Virus record (IMG/VR): IMGVR_UViG_3300025122_006649
Coordinates: 1 to 33,504 of that record
Length of the DNA: 33,504 nt
Direction: 5' to 3' (one strand)
DNA from: a virus
The position numbers and the translations under genes are program-made. Of this stretch, positions 18,345 to 29,500 are shown piece by piece. Positions within the stretch are counted from its first letter, which is position 1. Every line of letters starts with the position of its first letter. The notes under the pieces are model-generated. The model had not been told where the DNA came from. It made no database searches and was given only the letters and a program-made list of their open reading frames with translations.

Positions 18345-18566
18345 TCAGAACAATTCCAAATTATCAGCGGTATCGTCGGCAGGCAAGGGCTCATCGCGAG
18401 ACATATCAACGATACTCTCAACATCACCACCATGAGATTCTACCCATCGACAAAGCAATGTATTCCTTGCAGTCAGTAGGGTGTTACGTCCCTTGATAGC
18501 CAGGTAGTCATGGTGCAGTTTCGAGAGTCTTGATTCCAGTTCGGCTATTGTGGTTTGCTTTGCCAT
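18345..18566 (-). CDS. Small coiled-coil protein
   Basis: The 73-residue product has a heptad-like N-terminal half (TTIAELESRLSKLHHDYLAIK) and an acidic C-terminus. Its ATG overlaps the helicase stop (TAATG) and its stop abuts the GTG of the Mom-like gene, so the three are translationally linked. It lacks the Cys pairs of Mu Com. Function unknown. Confidence 0.6.
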   Translation of the reverse strand: MAKQTTIAELESRLSKLHHDYLAIKGRNTLLTARNTLLCRWVESHGGDVESIVDMSRDEPLPADDTADNLELF

Positions 18567-21223
18567 TACAGAAAATTCTCCACCGCTTCGGTAAACAGCT
18601 TCCGACGATTGCCCTTGAATAGCTCTGCATGCAACACCGCCGCCTTTTCCGGTGCGGTTATCGGACGGGTACTCTCGGCCTTCCGCCTTTCATCGATTTG
18701 CTTTTGCTGCACTGACATCACCTTGGCCTCGATCTCCGCTGCCTGTCCGTCCGAGCGCACCGCCACGAGTCGACCGTCAACCATTGCCGGCAAGAACCTT
18801 TGCATGTGCTTCCCCTCGGCATCATCGCCAAGCACGGCGCCGCAGAAATGGCACGTCACGTTTTGCGCAGCATTCATCACTCCGCACCTACCGCACATCT
18901 GCATAGGATCGAGGTCAACCACTGGCTCGGGCGCATCGTCGCCACCATCGCCTTCAAGCGACCATACAAAGTCACGATCGGGCATACCGTGGATTACTGA
19001 GTTCCCTACGAAATCTGCGCAGATGTAGAAATCTTTTCCTTCGACAACGCGCTCAGCACGTCCGTTAAACTGAGTCCAGATGATAGGACTAAGGGTTCGT
19101 CTAAGCCAAAGGACACCGTACAAACCATGGATAGACATCCCCTCGATTCCGATACCGACTGTACAAATACCGTTGTTTTTGCCCGCGGCAACAGCTCGCA
19201 AAATTCTTTTACGCTCATGCTTTGCAAGATTGGAGTGGAGGTGTTCAAAGTGCCATCCTTTTTCGGCGAATGCCTCGGTCATCATTTTCGCGTGTTCGTA
19301 GGTTGCACACGGTACGATCACCGGTCGACCTTCGAATGTGCGGGTATAGTAGTCTACCACGTTGCCTACGATTGTAGGCGCTCCGAGTATTTCGGCCTGT
19401 GCTTTCGTGTCGAAGTCGTCGCCGTTTTTCGGTACGTTCTGGCACCATTGCTCGGGGAGCACGAGGAGTGGTTTGGTTATGAAGCCCTGTTCGATAGCTT
19501 GGCTTTTCGAGATGGTCTGTACGACATCGGTATAGAGGTGCTCGAAGCTGCGCAAGCTGCCGTGATAGAGGGTGGCTGTCAGTCCGAGGCGTAGGGCGTT
19601 GGGGAAGTAGCGGTATATCGATTCCCAGCTTGACGCGAGAGCATGCTGACAGTTATGAGACAATATCCCGTTCGTGAAATAGCAATGGTTCGTCTCTACT
19701 TCGACGTCGTAAACCTGTTGGACATCGCGTTTTGAGATTCCAATTATACGCTCGTATTTTGTATTGCATGCACTCCGGAACGAATCCTTTGATTTCGTCG
19801 AGAAACTTTCTCGAAGCCTGAGAGCGAAGACCGACAAAAAAGAGGTCTTTCCTTTTTTCCTCTCTGATATAGCAAGGCCCGTAGCGATCTTGAAAGAAAT
19901 CTTTAATAGTACAGTTCTCATCATAGCTATAGCCGTGTGTGTGGAAATCGACCATATTTGAAATACACGATCCGTCATCGCAGAACCACCACGCCAACCC
20001 TTCGATTGTGAGCCTGTTAAGAGCTTCGATTGTAACTCGCTTTTTCCCGCCCTTGATGAGTAGTTCATGTATCGGCAGTAAGATCGGAAGACTCCGAGAG
20101 CGCCCAACAATTGAAGTCTTGCCATATCCAGCATTTGGGGTGATACGGGTTTCAAGTCCGATAGTTGATAGGTTTGCGGCCTTGTATTCGGCCCATTCTC
20201 GTTGAGGCAACCCATGAGTCCACGTAATGCGCGGAGATTTGCTACGTGCTGCGGGGAAACCAATACTCGAATCGCCAAGCAATGTGCCAATGATTTTCCC
20301 GATTTCCTCATTGGATAAAACGGCATTCCATCCTGGTTGGTGCTTGTCGTGCCCTTTCCGATATTTATTGTATCCGCACGAGCTTCGCATTTTTCTATAT
20401 GATTCAAACTTCCCACATCTCGGAAGTGCATTTTCACCGCATCCGCATTGGCATAACGGTGCTTCGTCAAGTATCTCTTGATATATCTTTCGCCATTCTG
20501 ATTCGGTCCTGTGCGCGTATGTCCGGTGACCTGGTATCCAAACCGGCGAATATCCTTTCTTGTTTCGCTCTGTTCGTTGGCCACATCCGCATTTACAAAG
20601 ATTTCGTCTTTCGATGTCAGGGTTCCAGCTGTCTGCCATCCGTGCTCCCCGTAGATAAGGTGGTCATGAGTGCAGCGCAGTCGCCTACCGGATTCGGTTG
20701 TAATCTCGATAATGTCTCGCTTGCCGCGAGGGATGAACTGAACAACTCGACTGTATTTTTTACGCACTCCATCATACGTCAGTATATACTTAGGGTTGTG
20801 TTGTGTCCATTCGTCTATGCGGATCGGGCCGAATTCGGTGTCAACCATTGTGTCACCGGTAACGCACTCATCGGTGATTATTTCGTCCGGGTATATCGAT
20901 TCTTGGATGTAGCCGAGTTGGTTAATCAAAGACAGCGCCATGCACACATACACCATGCGCCCTTTTCCTCGTACACCCTCATCATTGATATACCCCGGGT
21001 TCAAGCCATGCTCAGAAAGCACCTTCATCCATTCGGCGAATATTTCCATCTGAGGTACGATCACATACACGCGTCGGTTCAGTGAGTTACGGTCATCGAT
21101 GAGCGCTGCTGCGGTGTATGTTTTGCCGGTCCCGCATGGTGCGAGATAGACCGGGTGCCTTGAGTTGTTGAGTAGCATGTTGCAGATTCGGCGTGCTTCG
21201 AGTTGGTATGCTCTGTTGCCCAT
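18566..21223 (-). CDS. SF2 DNA helicase interrupted by an intein
   Basis: I place the start at the ATG at 21223, just before the conserved 'MGNRAYQLEARRICNMLLNN'; the longer frame to 21484 runs through the upstream HTH gene. Motif I is 'APCGTGKT' (residues 28-35). Motif II is split: '..EIITDE' then, after the intein, 'CQHA', which rejoin to DECQH. Motif III is 'GLTATLYHG', and the C-terminal helicase half has 'NNGICTVGIGIEGMSIHG' and 'QFNGRAERV'. A zinc ribbon follows (CGRCG...CHFC). After splicing the helicase would have 480 residues. There is no ribosome site; a promoter -10 lies five bases before the ATG, so the message may be leaderless. It probably acts in phage replication or recombination. 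Confidence 0.85.
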   Translation of the reverse strand: MGNRAYQLEARRICNMLLNNSRHPVYLAPCGTGKTYTAAALIDDRNSLNRRVYVIVPQMEIFAEWMKVLSEHGLNPGYINDEGVRGKGRMVYVCMALSLINQLGYIQESIYPDEIITDECVTGDTMVDTEFGPIRIDEWTQHNPKYILTYDGVRKKYSRVVQFIPRGKRDIIEITTESGRRLRCTHDHLIYGEHGWQTAGTLTSKDEIFVNADVANEQSETRKDIRRFGYQVTGHTRTGPNQNGERYIKRYLTKHRYANADAVKMHFRDVGSLNHIEKCEARADTINIGKGTTSTNQDGMPFYPMRKSGKSLAHCLAIRVLVSPQHVANLRALRGLMGCLNENGPNTRPQTYQLSDLKPVSPQMLDMARLQLLGALGVFRSYCRYMNYSSRAGKSELQSKLLTGSQSKGWRGGSAMTDRVFQIWSISTHTAIAMMRTVLLKISFKIATGLAISERKKGKTSFLSVFALRLRESFSTKSKDSFRSACNTKYERIIGISKRDVQQVYDVEVETNHCYFTNGILSHNCQHALASSWESIYRYFPNALRLGLTATLYHGSLRSFEHLYTDVVQTISKSQAIEQGFITKPLLVLPEQWCQNVPKNGDDFDTKAQAEILGAPTIVGNVVDYYTRTFEGRPVIVPCATYEHAKMMTEAFAEKGWHFEHLHSNLAKHERKRILRAVAAGKNNGICTVGIGIEGMSIHGLYGVLWLRRTLSPIIWTQFNGRAERVVEGKDFYICADFVGNSVIHGMPDRDFVWSLEGDGGDDAPEPVVDLDPMQMCGRCGVMNAAQNVTCHFCGAVLGDDAEGKHMQRFLPAMVDGRLVAVRSDGQAAEIEAKVMSVQQKQIDERRKAESTRPITAPEKAAVLHAELFKGNRRKLFTEAVENFL
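19652..20866 (-). mobile_element. Intein in helicase motif II
   Basis: The 405-residue intein starts at Cys1 (codon 20866-20864; CVTGDTMVDTEFG = block A), has block B with the T-x-x-H pattern (CTHDHLIY) followed by 'GWQTAGTLTSKDEIFV', and ends with block F 'VYDVEVETNHCYF' and block G 'NGILSHN' before a +1 Cys (19651-19649). All splicing residues are present: Cys1, block B Thr/His, penultimate His, terminal Asn, +1 Cys. About 290 residues between the splicing halves show no homing endonuclease motif in this frame; that stretch is the out-of-frame reading of a nested endonuclease gene. The insertion within the DECQH box is a typical conserved intein site. Confidence 0.92.
19653..20639 (-). CDS. 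LAGLIDADG homing endonuclease nested out of frame in the intein
   Basis: The 328-residue product begins at an ATG (20639) with GGGGAG five bases upstream. It has two N-terminal CxCGCG...GH zinc-type modules ('LCKCGCGQRTE...IPGHR', 'LCQCGCGENA...RKGHD'), then LAGLIDADG motif 1 (IGKIIGTLLGDSSIG, 113-127) and motif 2 (TIEGLAWWFCDDGS, 211-224), each with its catalytic Asp. It ends with 'VPECMQYKIRAYNW' and a TAA that lies across the Ser-His-Asn codons of intein block G. It is shifted by one frame from the intein and overlaps both block B and block F/G. It would cut intein-less helicase alleles and so spread the intein. See findings. Confidence 0.9.
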   Translation of the reverse strand: MADSWNPDIERRNLCKCGCGQRTERNKKGYSPVWIPGHRTYAHRTESEWRKIYQEILDEAPLCQCGCGENALPRCGKFESYRKMRSSCGYNKYRKGHDKHQPGWNAVLSNEEIGKIIGTLLGDSSIGFPAARSKSPRITWTHGLPQREWAEYKAANLSTIGLETRITPNAGYGKTSIVGRSRSLPILLPIHELLIKGGKKRVTIEALNRLTIEGLAWWFCDDGSCISNMVDFHTHGYSYDENCTIKDFFQDRYGPCYIREEKRKDLFFVGLRSQASRKFLDEIKGFVPECMQYKIRAYNWNLKTRCPTGLRRRSRDEPLLFHERDIVS

Positions 21224-21462: not shown

Positions 21463-21569
21463 CTCTTCCCCTTCGCCAACGCAACGACGAACCAAATCAG
21501 GACTGCATACTCAGCGATCAGCGCGAGCATGGGTACTATGAAAATTAATACTATGTCAGAGAGTTTCAC
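21459..21569 (-). CDS. 36-residue small membrane protein
   Basis: A GTG-started gene with a strong GGGAGG site encodes MKLSDIVLIFIVPMLALIAEYAVLIWFVVALAKGKR. It is almost entirely one long or two short membrane helices with a basic C-terminus. The stop overlaps the start of the HTH gene (ATGA), supporting translation. Function unknown; such peptides are often membrane or exclusion factors. Confidence 0.6.
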   Translation of the reverse strand: MKLSDIVLIFIVPMLALIAEYAVLIWFVVALAKGKR

Positions 21570-24142: not shown

Positions 24143-25300
24143 TTATCCTTTGATTACGCCAAGCGGCGTGAGTTCTGTTTTGATTTCTACGAGGTCGCTC
24201 TGTGCTACCATGACAGCGTCGATGTCTTTGTATGCACCGGATGCCTCATCAAGATCCTTTGCATTGCGAATACCATGCACTATGCCTTGGTCGTCGAGTC
24301 GCTTGATTTCAGCAGCAAGGTCAAGTTCGCGCGTTGCTTGCTTGCGGCCCATCCGGCGCCCGGCACCGTGAGAGCATGAGTTGAAGCTCTGCGGATTGCC
24401 TTTGCCTTGTACGATATACGACTTCGTTCCTTGCGAGCCAGGGATAATCCCGATGGTATCTTCACGGGCAAGCGTTGCGCCTTTGCGATGCACGATGACG
24501 TTCTTGCCGAAGTGATTCTCCCATGCCGCGTAGTTGTGGTGGATGTTGATATAGTTGTCATAGACGAACCCGCCAGAACCAACAACCGACTCAAAGCATT
24601 CTAACGCGCGATCAAGCATGAGTTTCCGGTTCTGATATGCGAACGATAGCGCATAGTTCATCGCTTCGAAGTATTCTTTCGCTTCTCGTGTCTCGATCGG
24701 CAGGAACGACAAATCAGGATCGGATATATCCGAATACCACCGCTCACATAACGCCTTTGCTTTGGCGTGATATTCCTTGGCTATCTTGTAGCCGAAATTA
24801 CGCGAGCCGGAATGAACCATGATCCATATCAATCCGTCCTGATCCTGTTGTATCTCTATAAAGTGGTTGCCCCCACCGAGCGTGCCGAGTTGCTTTCGTG
24901 CCGATGATAGTTTGTTCTGAATGATGCGGATATCGGGAGCGTCGTCAAAGCCGTCCCACTCTTGCGCGGTTTCGTGGTGAGCAAATCCAACCGGTATCGC
25001 TTCTCGGATCTTCCCCATGGTGGCCTTTATTTGTTCGACATCCACATTCACGATAGATGTTTTCGCGGCTATCATTCCGCACCCGATGTCGACGCCGACG
25101 CAAAACGGTAACACCGTACCCTCGGTTGCCATAACACCTCCTATGGGTAAACCGTATCCCTGATGTGCGTCAGCCATGACAGCTACATGCTTGAATATGA
25201 AAGGAATATTGGCTACGTTCTTCGCTTGTTGCAGTGCGCCCTCTTCGATATCTTCGGCCCATATTTTGATAGGCTTCTTTTCTGTCGATACAACGTTCAT
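24143..25300 (-). CDS. rtcB: RtcB-family RNA ligase
   Basis: The 385-residue product carries the full RtcB motif set: 'CVGVDIGCGM' (67-76; metal Asp71, Cys74), 'GGGNHFIEI' (142-150), 'VHSGSRNFG' (162-170; His163), 'NIHHNYA' (252-258), 'RKGAT' (272-276) and 'NSCSHGAGR' (307-315) with His311, the guanylylated residue. RtcB joins 2',3'-cyclic phosphate or 3'-phosphate ends to 5'-OH ends using GTP and Mn2+; it splices tRNA introns in archaea and animals and repairs RNA in bacteria. The gene has AAGGAG five bases upstream of the ATG. A co-oriented interrupted tRNA-like gene ends 25 bases upstream, which suggests a joint function. Confidence 0.93.
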   Translation of the reverse strand: MNVVSTEKKPIKIWAEDIEEGALQQAKNVANIPFIFKHVAVMADAHQGYGLPIGGVMATEGTVLPFCVGVDIGCGMIAAKTSIVNVDVEQIKATMGKIREAIPVGFAHHETAQEWDGFDDAPDIRIIQNKLSSARKQLGTLGGGNHFIEIQQDQDGLIWIMVHSGSRNFGYKIAKEYHAKAKALCERWYSDISDPDLSFLPIETREAKEYFEAMNYALSFAYQNRKLMLDRALECFESVVGSGGFVYDNYINIHHNYAAWENHFGKNVIVHRKGATLAREDTIGIIPGSQGTKSYIVQGKGNPQSFNSCSHGAGRRMGRKQATRELDLAAEIKRLDDQGIVHGIRNAKDLDEASGAYKDIDAVMVAQSDLVEIKTELTPLGVIKG

Positions 25301-25325: not shown

Positions 25326-25471
25326 TGGCATCGGCAGGATTCGAACCTGCATGAGTTTGACAGCAGTCATGATTCCGCGTTTGACATCCTCAGCTTGGCA
25401 TGTAACCACAAGCGCGACTGCCACGATTTATGATGTCAACCACTGCGTCTATCCAATTCCGCCACGATGCC
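25326..25471 (-). tRNA. tRNA-like gene interrupted in the anticodon region
   Basis: Read leftward, GGCATCG (25471-25465) pairs perfectly with CGATGCC (25333-25327), followed by A as discriminator; no CCA is encoded. The D arm (25462-25445, GCG...CGC with GG in the loop) is nearly identical to bacterial tRNA-Leu D arms, and the T arm is perfect (GCAGG-TTCGAAT-CCTGC, 25350-25334). Between D and T stems lie 94 bases, versus roughly 23-40 in normal tRNAs. In them TTGACATC (25439-25432) is complementary to GATGTCAA (25388-25381), a canonical-looking loop ATCATAA (25434-25428, anticodon CAU if real) occurs, and TGAC-TGCT-GTCA (25369-25358) could be a variable arm. No single clover-leaf is compelling, so identity is not assigned. 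Confidence 0.6.
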
Positions 25472-27088: not shown

Positions 27089-29332
27089 CTAAAATAATTC
27101 TGTCGTGTTCTTGATCGATTCAGCTTCTTTCAAATTCGCTACGCCTTGCTTCCAATAACTCGGTTTCAGTTCTACCCCCTTGAATTTCCTCCCCATTTTC
27201 ACAGCTTCGAATCCCTCAGATGCTATGCCAGCGAAAGGCGAAACTACCACATCGCCTTCCAGTGACCACAATTGCAATGCACGATGGATTACTTGCAATT
27301 GCAATGGCGCTATATGTCTTTCGTCTTTTTCTTCTCGGGCAGACGATTTCTGCAATGTCTCGGACGCGTTGATATCCATCCACACAGGAGACGCGTATCG
27401 CTGCCATACATCGATACTGTATCGTTCTCCTGCTTTCGCTGTTTGCCGGCCGCCATGCAATTCATCCCCTTCGTAATGGTCGAATTCTCCTGCTATCGGT
27501 TTGCCGTTTTTTCCTGGTTTCCTCATGGTAACCAAATAATCTGGTATTCCTTGACGGCTCATCGCCGAATCTTTAACCACTTGCTTGTGTAGCAACCCGA
27601 TAGATTTTGTGCGTTGCATCGCTGTGACTGGATCTTTCCAGATTACCACTTCCGAATGATAAATGAACCCGGCATCAACGTACAATTTGATCATGTCGCC
27701 TCGGAAGTCGCGCATGCCTATATACCCATTATGGGTGATTGTAGATGGTATGTTCATGCAATGAAATGACAGCAACCGACCAGGGCGGAGTGTGCGGAAT
27801 TGTTCTTTTATCAGGAAATTATAATGATCGAAGAACGCTTTATCATTTGTGCAATTACCCATATCGCGATCGCTCGCAGAGTATGTATATAGGGATGAGA
27901 AGGGAGGTGAAAATATCATATAGTCTACGGAATCATCCGCGAGATTGCGGTGAAAGTTGACGGTATCCCCTAAATGCATTTCCCATCCGGCGCCTTTGGC
28001 GAAATCTTCTACGTATTCGGAATGCGTACTCACGATCCCTTTTACATTTTCCTCGTTTATTGTGTGCATATGCTCCACCATATTTTTTGACATTTCCATA
28101 GCGTCATTTTCTTTTCGTTGGATGTTTTTCACCACTGCGCCTTCCAGTTCGGATGTGATGATTTTCACGTTCACTGTTTCCGATTGTCCGAATCGCCAAC
28201 ACCTACGAACGGCTTGATAGTATTGTTCATAGGAATCAGACAAACCGACGAATGCTACATTGTGGCAATTCTGAAAATTGAGTCCGTATCCGAACATTGA
28301 TGGCTTAGAAATGAGTACACGGATATCACCACTCGCGAATCCCCGCGCCGAATTGACTTTATGGTCCTGGTTGTCAGATCCTTTCACCTCGACAGATCCA
28401 GTTGTCAGTTTTTTTAGCGCGTCCGATTCATCATTCCTGTTGCACCATACGATCCATTGATTGCTATTTCCGTTTACCAGTTCTGCTGCTTTTCGTGCTC
28501 GATCTCCAACTGTCGCTCTTCGTGCTTGTTGTCGTTCTTGCAATGTTTGCGCTTCCATGGTGAATAAACAACCTTCTTGTATAGCTTCGGTGTCGATTAC
28601 TATCTGTTCAATTTCCAATGGTGGCAAAATAAAGTCTCCATCGTCATATCCGAAGTCTGAAGGCTTGCGTAGCATGACAGCCCATGAAGCTACCCATCTC
28701 CAAAATTCATTCTCGGCATGTCCTTTGAGCCTCCATTTTTGTGTCTCTCCGCCATCGTGTACGAAAAACATAGACAGCATTTCCGTCCGAGACATGGCGC
28801 CTACAAACTCGGCATGGTTGCCAAGCTCCATATAATCATTTGGAGCGGGGGTCGCTGTACATGCGAGCTTGAAAGGGATGATTCCGAAACGTTCTATGAT
28901 TTCGTTTCGTATTTTGCCGGTATAGCTTTTGAGAATCGATGATTCATCAAGGACTATCCCTTTATAATTCTCGGGATTAAAATGTTCGAGCCGTTCGTAA
29001 TTGGTGATTGATACCCTGGTAGGAATTTCCCCATGTTGCGAATACTCCATAGGCTCTTTGTGGAATTTCTCAGCTTCGGTTATTGTTTGTTGTGATACCG
29101 CGAGCGGTGCGACTATCAACACATTGCCCGGTACGTGATGAGCCCATTCGAGCTGGATTGGTGTTTTCCCCATACCGCAATCCGCGAATACACAAGCCCG
29201 TCCTCGCTTCAATGCCCAGCGCGTAATATCGCGTTGAAACGGGAATAGCATATCGTTGATGTCTGGTATTTCAGATAATCCGGTAGGCACATCTTCTATG
29301 GCCTTTTGACGTAAAAACTCCTCGTATCGCAT
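27089..29332 (-). CDS. SNF2-type helicase fused to DNA methyltransferase
   Basis: I start at the ATG at 29332 with AGGAGG just upstream; a longer frame to 29482 would cross the promoter. The 747-residue product has an SF2/SNF2 helicase half: 'ADCGMGKT' (50-57), 'VLDESS' (127-132), 'CTATPAPND' (158-166), 'QAVRRCWRFGQ' (373-383), then a methyltransferase half with 'FSPPFSSLYTYS' (474-485; SPPF is motif IV of N4-cytosine/N6-adenine enzymes) and 'SPFAGIASEGFEA' (698-710; motif I, FxGxG-type, with Ala in place of the third Gly) near the C-terminus. Motif order IV-I is circularly permuted, as in beta-class enzymes. It probably methylates phage DNA while tracking along it. Confidence 0.85.
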   Translation of the reverse strand: MRYEEFLRQKAIEDVPTGLSEIPDINDMLFPFQRDITRWALKRGRACVFADCGMGKTPIQLEWAHHVPGNVLIVAPLAVSQQTITEAEKFHKEPMEYSQHGEIPTRVSITNYERLEHFNPENYKGIVLDESSILKSYTGKIRNEIIERFGIIPFKLACTATPAPNDYMELGNHAEFVGAMSRTEMLSMFFVHDGGETQKWRLKGHAENEFWRWVASWAVMLRKPSDFGYDDGDFILPPLEIEQIVIDTEAIQEGCLFTMEAQTLQERQQARRATVGDRARKAAELVNGNSNQWIVWCNRNDESDALKKLTTGSVEVKGSDNQDHKVNSARGFASGDIRVLISKPSMFGYGLNFQNCHNVAFVGLSDSYEQYYQAVRRCWRFGQSETVNVKIITSELEGAVVKNIQRKENDAMEMSKNMVEHMHTINEENVKGIVSTHSEYVEDFAKGAGWEMHLGDTVNFHRNLADDSVDYMIFSPPFSSLYTYSASDRDMGNCTNDKAFFDHYNFLIKEQFRTLRPGRLLSFHCMNIPSTITHNGYIGMRDFRGDMIKLYVDAGFIYHSEVVIWKDPVTAMQRTKSIGLLHKQVVKDSAMSRQGIPDYLVTMRKPGKNGKPIAGEFDHYEGDELHGGRQTAKAGERYSIDVWQRYASPVWMDINASETLQKSSAREEKDERHIAPLQLQVIHRALQLWSLEGDVVVSPFAGIASEGFEAVKMGRKFKGVELKPSYWKQGVANLKEAESIKNTTELF

Positions 29333-29348
29333 CGGTCCTCCTGTCATT

Positions 29349-29377
29349 ACCATAATAAAGCGCCATGGTATTGTCAA
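29349..29377 (-). promoter_or_regulatory. Leftward promoter for the helicase-methyltransferase operon
   Basis: Read leftward, TTGACA (29377-29372), 17 bases, TATGGT (29354-29349). A half-copy of the operator motif (ATGGTAATG) covers the -10. Its -35 overlaps the -35 of a rightward promoter (29371-29376). Confidence 0.65.
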
Positions 29378-29399
29378 CGATGAAAAATAGTTGTATGTT
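29371..29399 (+). promoter_or_regulatory. Rightward promoter of a short RNA
   Basis: TTGTCA (29371-29376), 17 bases, TATGTT (29394-29399). It is back-to-back with the leftward promoter and shares its -35 bases. Transcription would run about 70 bases into a strong terminator. Confidence 0.5.
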
Positions 29400-29401
29400 G
29401 T

Positions 29402-29474
29402 AGAAGACGTTTCGCATACGTCCTCCTTTATTTCCCCTCGGCAGGTTAACTCCTTACTGCCGGGGGTTTTTTTT
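29402..29474 (+). ncRNA. Candidate small RNA
   Basis: Between a rightward promoter and a terminator lies about 70 bases with no open frame: a hairpin (GACGT/ACGTC, 7-base loop), an unpaired pyrimidine stretch (TCCTCCTTTATTTCCCC) complementary to AGGAGG-type ribosome sites, then the terminator stem. This hairpin-plus-CU-stretch-plus-terminator plan is common in bacterial small RNAs. It rests on structure only. Confidence 0.4.
29435..29474 (+). terminator. Strong rightward terminator
   Basis: CCCTCGGCAG (29435-29444) pairs with CTGCCGGGGG (29457-29466) with one T-G pair, a 12-base loop, then eight Ts (29467-29474). Confidence 0.85.
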
Positions 29475-29500
29475 GGGTGCATTGCGCAAAGTGGTATGGT
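29473..29500 (+). promoter_or_regulatory. Probable rightward promoter of the ParB operon
   Basis: Best fit is TTGGGT (29473-29478), 16 bases, TATGGT (29495-29500). The region contains AGTGGTATGGTATTAT, related to the operator motif of the leftward promoters. Other -10 choices (TATTAT, TACTAT) exist nearby, so the exact start is uncertain. Confidence 0.45.

Follow-up and report, generated by a model that had tools for sequence, protein, structure and literature searches.

The DNA analysed here, called the window, is the whole of a 33,504-nucleotide (nt) stretch, positions 1 to 33,504 of the IMG/VR virus record IMGVR_UViG_3300025122_006649. Its subject is a superfamily 2 (SF2) helicase gene that is interrupted by an intein, together with a second gene, for a LAGLIDADG homing endonuclease, that is written in another reading frame of the same intein DNA (Table 1). 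The helicase corresponds by profile to the phrog_16 DNA helicase (7.5e-50), and its frame stays open upstream of the likely start codon, as far as a TTG at 21484. The intein has all of the hallmark residues of its class (Cys1, TxxH at residues 66-69, His404-Asn405, and Cys+1) and matches three intein models: Pfam Intein_splicing (4.2e-13), TIGR01445 for the N-terminal part (4.5e-9), and TIGR01443 for the C-terminal part (1.7e-6). Its 405 codons are free of stops and the helicase frame is continuous across it; that is, the window contains neither a split intein nor a fractured gene. In the AlphaFold model of the intein, confidence is high only for residues 1-94 and 368-405, the segments that make up the Hint fold, and the closest solved structures to the predicted intein are mini-inteins, those of RecA, DnaX (7cfv), and DnaB. 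By profile, the intein matches the cyanobacterial DnaX intein family (1.5e-47).

Table 1. The helicase, its intein, and the overlapping endonuclease gene: positions in the window (a slash marks the insertion point of the intein; ORF, open reading frame; pLDDT, predicted local distance difference test score)
Feature	Position	Strand	Evidence or remark
Intein-containing SF2 helicase precursor ORF	18566..21223	-	885 aa from likely ATG at 21223; ResIII 3.9e-12, Helicase_C 4.1e-6
N-extein	20867..21223	-	Last residues are helicase motif II, ITDE
Intein, 405 residues, Cys1 to His-Asn405	19652..20866	-	Insertion at DE/CQH of motif II
Splicing block A, N-terminal (CVTGDTMVDTEFG)	20828..20866	-	TIGR01445
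Splicing block B region (RRLRCTHDHLIYG, TxxH)	20645..20686	-	Alignment
Intein-frame linker, residues 95-367	19766..20584	-	Predicted disordered (pLDDT mostly 23-37)
Splicing blocks F and G, C-terminal (QVYDVEVETNHCYFTNGILSHN)	19652..19717	-	Wholly overlapped by the low-confidence C-terminal tail of the endonuclease
C-extein of helicase	18566..19651	-	Begins Cys-Gln-His (+1 Cys)
Endonuclease gene, 328 aa plus TAA	19653..20639	-	Pfam LAGLIDADG_2 (PF03161) 1.6e-21
Putative ribosome-binding site, GGGGAG	20645..20650	-	5 nt before endonuclease ATG, within block B codons
First CxCGCG cysteine module, CKCGCG	20580..20597	-	Alignment
Second CxCGCG cysteine module, CQCGCG	20427..20444	-	Alignments
First LAGLIDADG helix motif, IGTLLGDSS	20265..20291	-	
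Second LAGLIDADG helix motif, LAWWFCDDGS	19968..19997	-	

The endonuclease is not an in-frame domain of the intein, unlike the endonuclease of a canonical endonuclease-containing intein: its ATG lies 227 nt from the intein Cys1, a distance of 2 mod 3. Endonuclease codons begin on the third base of an intein codon; that is, the intein frame is the endonuclease frame +1. The endonuclease frame is open for only 24 nt upstream of its ATG, and its TAA straddles the last two intein codons, CAT-AAC (His-Asn). An earlier, sequence-only reading of this DNA had proposed that a complete intein and a complete LAGLIDADG endonuclease share DNA in different frames, and the frames, coordinates, start, and stop that it gave hold, as do the two cysteine modules, the separate ATG, the GGGGAG site, and the TAA across the final intein codons. 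Its claim that the endonuclease overlaps both splicing ends needs narrowing: the gene spans intein codons 77 to 405, and so covers the tail of the N-terminal half and the whole of the C-terminal half, but it starts after TxxH and does not reach block A. The residues DEIFV, which had been taken for the end of block B, sit just after it.

The endonuclease chain contains two LAGLIDADG helices, with Asp in both motifs (GTLLGDSS and FCDDGS). In a Foldseek search with the predicted structure the nearest entries were I-WcaI (E 6e-12) and I-SceI (E 2e-11), and profile matches agree; the LAGLIDADG core is predicted with confidence, the N-terminal cysteine modules more weakly, and the last 25 residues weakly. 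We conclude, from family profile and predicted fold, that the product is an I-SceI-type LAGLIDADG_2 homing endonuclease with putative activity. The DNA of the intein linker codes, in the other frame, for most of the folded endonuclease, and in the models each product is folded largely where the other is unfolded.

The open intein frame above the endonuclease gene is not a product of chance. The intein frame has 0 stops, whereas synonymous versions of the gene drawn with phage codon usage have a mean of 11.0 and versions in which its codons are permuted have a mean of 7.6; because neither shuffle gave a single stop-free draw (0/20,000 in each), chance is excluded, as the sequence-only reading had anticipated. 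The third frame over the endonuclease gene, which has a G+C content of 0.47, contains 19 stops.

The same arrangement recurs in other genomes. Relatives were collected by profile searches with the endonuclease in viral contigs, genome contigs, and phage records, and frames were then compared by use of hidden Markov models of the N-intein, the C-intein, and the endonuclease. Four architectures were found. The first, a nested endonuclease with the +1 offset of the window, is present at 45 non-redundant loci, comprising 36 cyanobacterial dnaX genes and nine phage or viral loci (the window, Xanthomonas phage FoX3, L002, L009, L010, L013, L019, L097, and L110), and it includes both an isolated phage, FoX3, and a complete Microcoleus chromosome. 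The second, a nested endonuclease with the other offset, is present at six loci (L020, L027, L039, L105, L115, and L172), the hosts of which, where Pfam was run, are phage terminase gpA-type ATPases (L020, L027, and L039) and a DEAD/DEAH helicase (L115). In this second group several endonucleases are extended at the C terminus by long repetitive stretches rich in lysine and arginine, and at L020, L027, L039, and L105 the intein starts with Thr or Ser. In the third architecture, found in Escherichia phages ES and AN_ECEAS, in Pectobacterium phages Amona, Ymer, and Sabo, and at viral locus L103, the intein is split: the helicase lies in two ORFs, and the endonuclease ORF overlaps both halves. 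In the fourth, at L014, the N half, the endonuclease, and the C half each have an ORF of their own, with no overlap among the three. An endonuclease of the same family is fused in frame in still other inteins, among them the terminase intein of L003.

These relatives bear on two further proposals of the sequence-only reading. Stops in the linker frame of homologues, which it had named as evidence that would count against the arrangement, do occur in Escherichia, Pectobacterium, and other phages; they leave the arrangement standing because the intein halves there lie in two ORFs, which fits a split intein. The proposal of one recent invasion of a single mini-intein is not sustained, with the same offset at 45 loci and a second offset at six. 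The tree of endonuclease cores is poorly resolved at depth, and in it the +1 nested group may have arisen once or more than once. Invasion of a mini-intein by a free-standing endonuclease is a plausible origin. In the same tree the split group (with L111) forms a separate, well-supported clade.

In the nested loci the intein frame contains no stops, at 45/45 loci with the +1 offset (4 to 37 stops in the third frame) and at 6/6 loci with the other offset (9 to 19 stops in the other frame), a count that is partly a matter of definition, since the nested set is defined by its open host frame. The weight that we place on openness therefore rests on the shuffles, on the third-frame counts, and on unselected controls: among related endonuclease genes that are in-frame, free-standing, or unassigned, 0/75 have a stop-free alternative frame (L163, a dnaX copy cut by a contig end, was excluded from this set). 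A test that does not depend on stop counts gives the same picture. A TGA in the +1 frame is unavoidable wherever the endonuclease has Met before Ile, Met, Thr, Asn, or Lys, and such pairs occur at 0/175 Met positions in the +1 nested endonucleases, as compared to 92/378 in the in-frame, free-standing, or unassigned endonucleases and 11/43 in the other-offset group, where they are harmless. They are also missing from the split-intein relatives (0/38; L005, L089, L090, and L103), as if these were of nested descent, and it is this count, by itself, that suggests a direction from nested to split.

Selection was measured in nine independent cyanobacterial pairs with intact endonucleases (784 differences), none of them from the window's own lineage. 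The ratio of nonsynonymous to synonymous change (N/S) is 0.26 in the endonuclease frame vs. 1.45 in the overlying intein frame, and, when only endonuclease-synonymous changes are counted, the intein N/S is 0.83; the picture is unchanged for transition biases from 1 to 4. From these ratios we conclude that the endonuclease is under purifying selection on its amino-acid sequence and that the overlying intein frame is kept mainly for its openness. The earlier suggestion that both frames are selected is thus correct in that both are constrained, but they are not constrained alike. Among 35 non-redundant 430-residue cyanobacterial copies, stops are present in the endonuclease frame in seven and in the intein frame in none (0/35). 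The dnaX inteins with broken endonucleases (L137, L147, L153, L154, L157, L158, and L188) have 1-3 stops each and an intact intein frame; L133 was not counted as broken, since only its terminal stop falls within the fixed comparison window.

Full, reduced, and empty alleles are all found. Among 386 cyanobacterial genomes, 32 dnaX genes contain the intein and about 347 do not. Of the 32 inteins, 10 are full-length, five are partly deleted, and 16 are of mini size; the remaining copy has a short open frame (538 aa), probably because its contig ends there. The host frame is open in all 32 genes. In Xanthomonas phages, removal of 942 nt from the FoX3 helicase yields a sequence with 99.3% identity to FoX5, 99.1% to FoX2, and 98.0% to FoX1, and the junction between occupied and empty sequence falls exactly at DE/C. 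Because the sequence after removal is nearly identical to these three, we conclude that FoX3 carries the occupied allele among empty ones. The overlapping endonuclease gene of FoX3 (locus L004, 2830-3597, MT161383) is unannotated; the public record lists the helicase only.

The window system shares features with several known systems. One is the cyanobacterial DnaX intein (Ssp DnaX; Spl DnaX mini-intein, 7cfv), which has the same family profile, the same DE/C insertion motif, and, at 36 dnaX loci, the same endonuclease family in the same offset, but its host protein is a clamp loader, not a phage helicase, and the laboratory versions are minimised and lack the overlapping region. The nearest in endonuclease are I-SceI and I-WcaI, the best structural and profile matches, which differ in being intron-encoded, whereas the window endonuclease is out of frame in an intein and has two N-terminal CxCGCG modules. 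Canonical LAGLIDADG inteins such as PI-SceI likewise have endonuclease-coding sequence within the Hint domain, placed between blocks B and F, but there the endonuclease is an in-frame domain, whereas in the window it is a separate ORF in another frame; in PMC3229294 and PMC6801210 the endonuclease is presented as belonging to the intein or as a domain nested in it. Separate splicing and endonuclease proteins are also made by fractured genes in which a split intein is accompanied by a stand-alone endonuclease (Dassa et al. 2009, to the extent cited in PMC3229294). ES, Amona, Ymer, and Sabo resemble these in having helicase halves that bear split-intein ends and an endonuclease between them, which in these phages overlaps both halves; the window intein differs in being one continuous ORF that the endonuclease overlaps. 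The closest report that we found is of ShiLan, an HNH gene out of frame in a mycobacteriophage methylase (PMC11855218). The ShiLan element and the Pacc40 insertion of the same report resemble the window in having an out-of-frame endonuclease ORF in a phage gene whose own frame is open, but they involve HNH, a methylase host, no detectable splicing domain, and no recognised ribosome site; the window, with its splicing domain, is not an insertion of the ShiLan type. For overlapping frames PMC11855218 cites Gosselin et al. 2025 (actinobacteriophage inteins, 'non-canonical architecture') and Gorbalenya 1998 ('Non-canonical inteins'), which, judged from that citing paper, may describe comparable inteins.

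Four other explanations of the locus were weighed. An error of sequencing or assembly, in which two compensating indels make an ordinary fused endonuclease look shifted relative to the intein, might be considered for what is one metagenomic virus contig, but independent genomes have the same offset, including those of isolated FoX3 and Microcoleus, and the codon statistics show that stops have long been avoided in the second frame; this explanation is ruled out for practical purposes. The open intein frame might instead be an unselected by-product of base composition or of endonuclease codon choice, splicing needing the two ends only. High-G+C genes do carry fewer stops in alternative frames; the window gene, however, has a G+C content of 0.47, 19 stops in its third frame, and no stop-free shuffle, controls of similar or higher G+C do have stops, and the stop-forcing amino-acid pairs are missing from nested endonucleases, so that we consider a by-product wholly improbable.

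The intein might also be dead and never splice, the endonuclease having simply landed out of frame in a gene that tolerates it, as has been suggested for ShiLan in mycobacteriophage methylases; in ShiLan-type elements, which have no splicing domain, the host frame does remain open (PMC11855218). This is very unlikely here: all splicing blocks are kept, the Hint fold is predicted with high confidence, the insert occupies catalytic motif II of the helicase (Walker B in DnaX), and the Synechocystis DnaX intein splices experimentally, as a 150-aa version (PMC3443213). Somewhat less remote, but still unlikely, is that the endonuclease is made by ribosomal frameshifting from the helicase frame, as a fusion of helicase N-terminal part, intein N-terminal part, and endonuclease, with no internal initiation. 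The 24-nt overlap of frames ahead of the ATG makes such a shift formally possible. It is made less likely by the lack of a slippery heptamer in that zone of the window (one is present in 2/9 relatives checked); moreover, an ATG with GGGGAG at good spacing is available, and split relatives keep the endonuclease as an ORF of its own that overlaps both halves.

With these alternatives weighed, it is highly probable that the window contains a two-frame mobile intein at the motif II (Walker B, DE/C) site of a phage helicase. The architecture, its recurrence, the cyanobacterial selection pattern, and the occupied and empty FoX alleles are observed; to judge from known families, such an element would work as follows. 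Ribosomes would read the helicase frame straight through the intein; intein residues 1-94 and 368-405 would, to judge from motifs, fold prediction, and solved relatives, fold as a Hint splicing domain, excise, and join the exteins, and residues 95-367 would form a long linker of little defined sequence. Initiation at the internal ATG, with its own ribosome site, would produce the I-SceI-like LAGLIDADG endonuclease as a protein of its own, read in the second frame, and this endonuclease would cut intein-free alleles, repair of which would copy in the whole two-gene block, as in ordinary intein homing. Loss of the endonuclease would leave mini-inteins, and stops in the intein frame would accompany split forms. 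The overlap would cost little because the two folded products use different parts of the shared codons.

Four points weigh against this interpretation. Splicing, internal initiation, and cleavage are attributed to the window phage by analogy with known families. The selection figures come from cyanobacteria and not from the window, for which no close helicase relative was found (searches with the C-extein in viral and genome contigs, and a phage megablast with 25 kb of the window), and no relative was found in plasmids. The ribosome site is clear in several nested loci and not in all. The zero-stop count is, as stated above, partly set by the definition of the nested group.

Two other regions of the window merit mention. 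At 25326-25471, on the minus strand, the Rfam tRNA model matches (35.1 bits), with about 75 nt inserted between the D and T arms; the insert contains the inverted repeat TTGACATC/GATGTCAA. ARAGORN finds no tRNA at these positions. The match ends 25 nt upstream of a gene for an RtcB RNA ligase (24143-25300, PF01139 2e-112), and is possibly an interrupted tRNA beside its own ligase. A 797-aa ORF at 27089-29482, also on the minus strand, appears by eye to consist of an SNF2-like helicase half and a DNA methyltransferase half.

In textbook inteins the endonuclease and the splicing domain form one fused protein. In the arrangement described here the two functions are uncoupled as proteins and locked together as DNA. 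At the protein level, splicing would thereby be independent of folding around an endonuclease; at the DNA level, many indels that break the endonuclease would therefore break the host protein too. Recurrence in phages and in cyanobacterial dnaX points to a lasting design, in which one stretch of DNA makes both the splicing part and the spreading part. The wider proposal, which we put forward tentatively, as a possibility that we rate slightly less likely than not, is that these loci represent a widespread, long-lived, and largely undescribed class of intein, in which splicing and homing reside in two proteins from overlapping frames, which moves among unrelated P-loop ATPases (SF2 helicases, terminases, and DnaX) via their shared Walker B DE/C codons, and which would supply the intermediate so far missing between inteins with an in-frame endonuclease and split inteins whose endonuclease is separate. 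The FoX3 record illustrates why annotation misses such genes, and the FoX3/FoX5 pair could serve as a laboratory homing system. The range of alleles found (empty, full, with broken endonuclease, mini, split, and fully separated) allows ideas on how split inteins arose to be tested directly by comparison.

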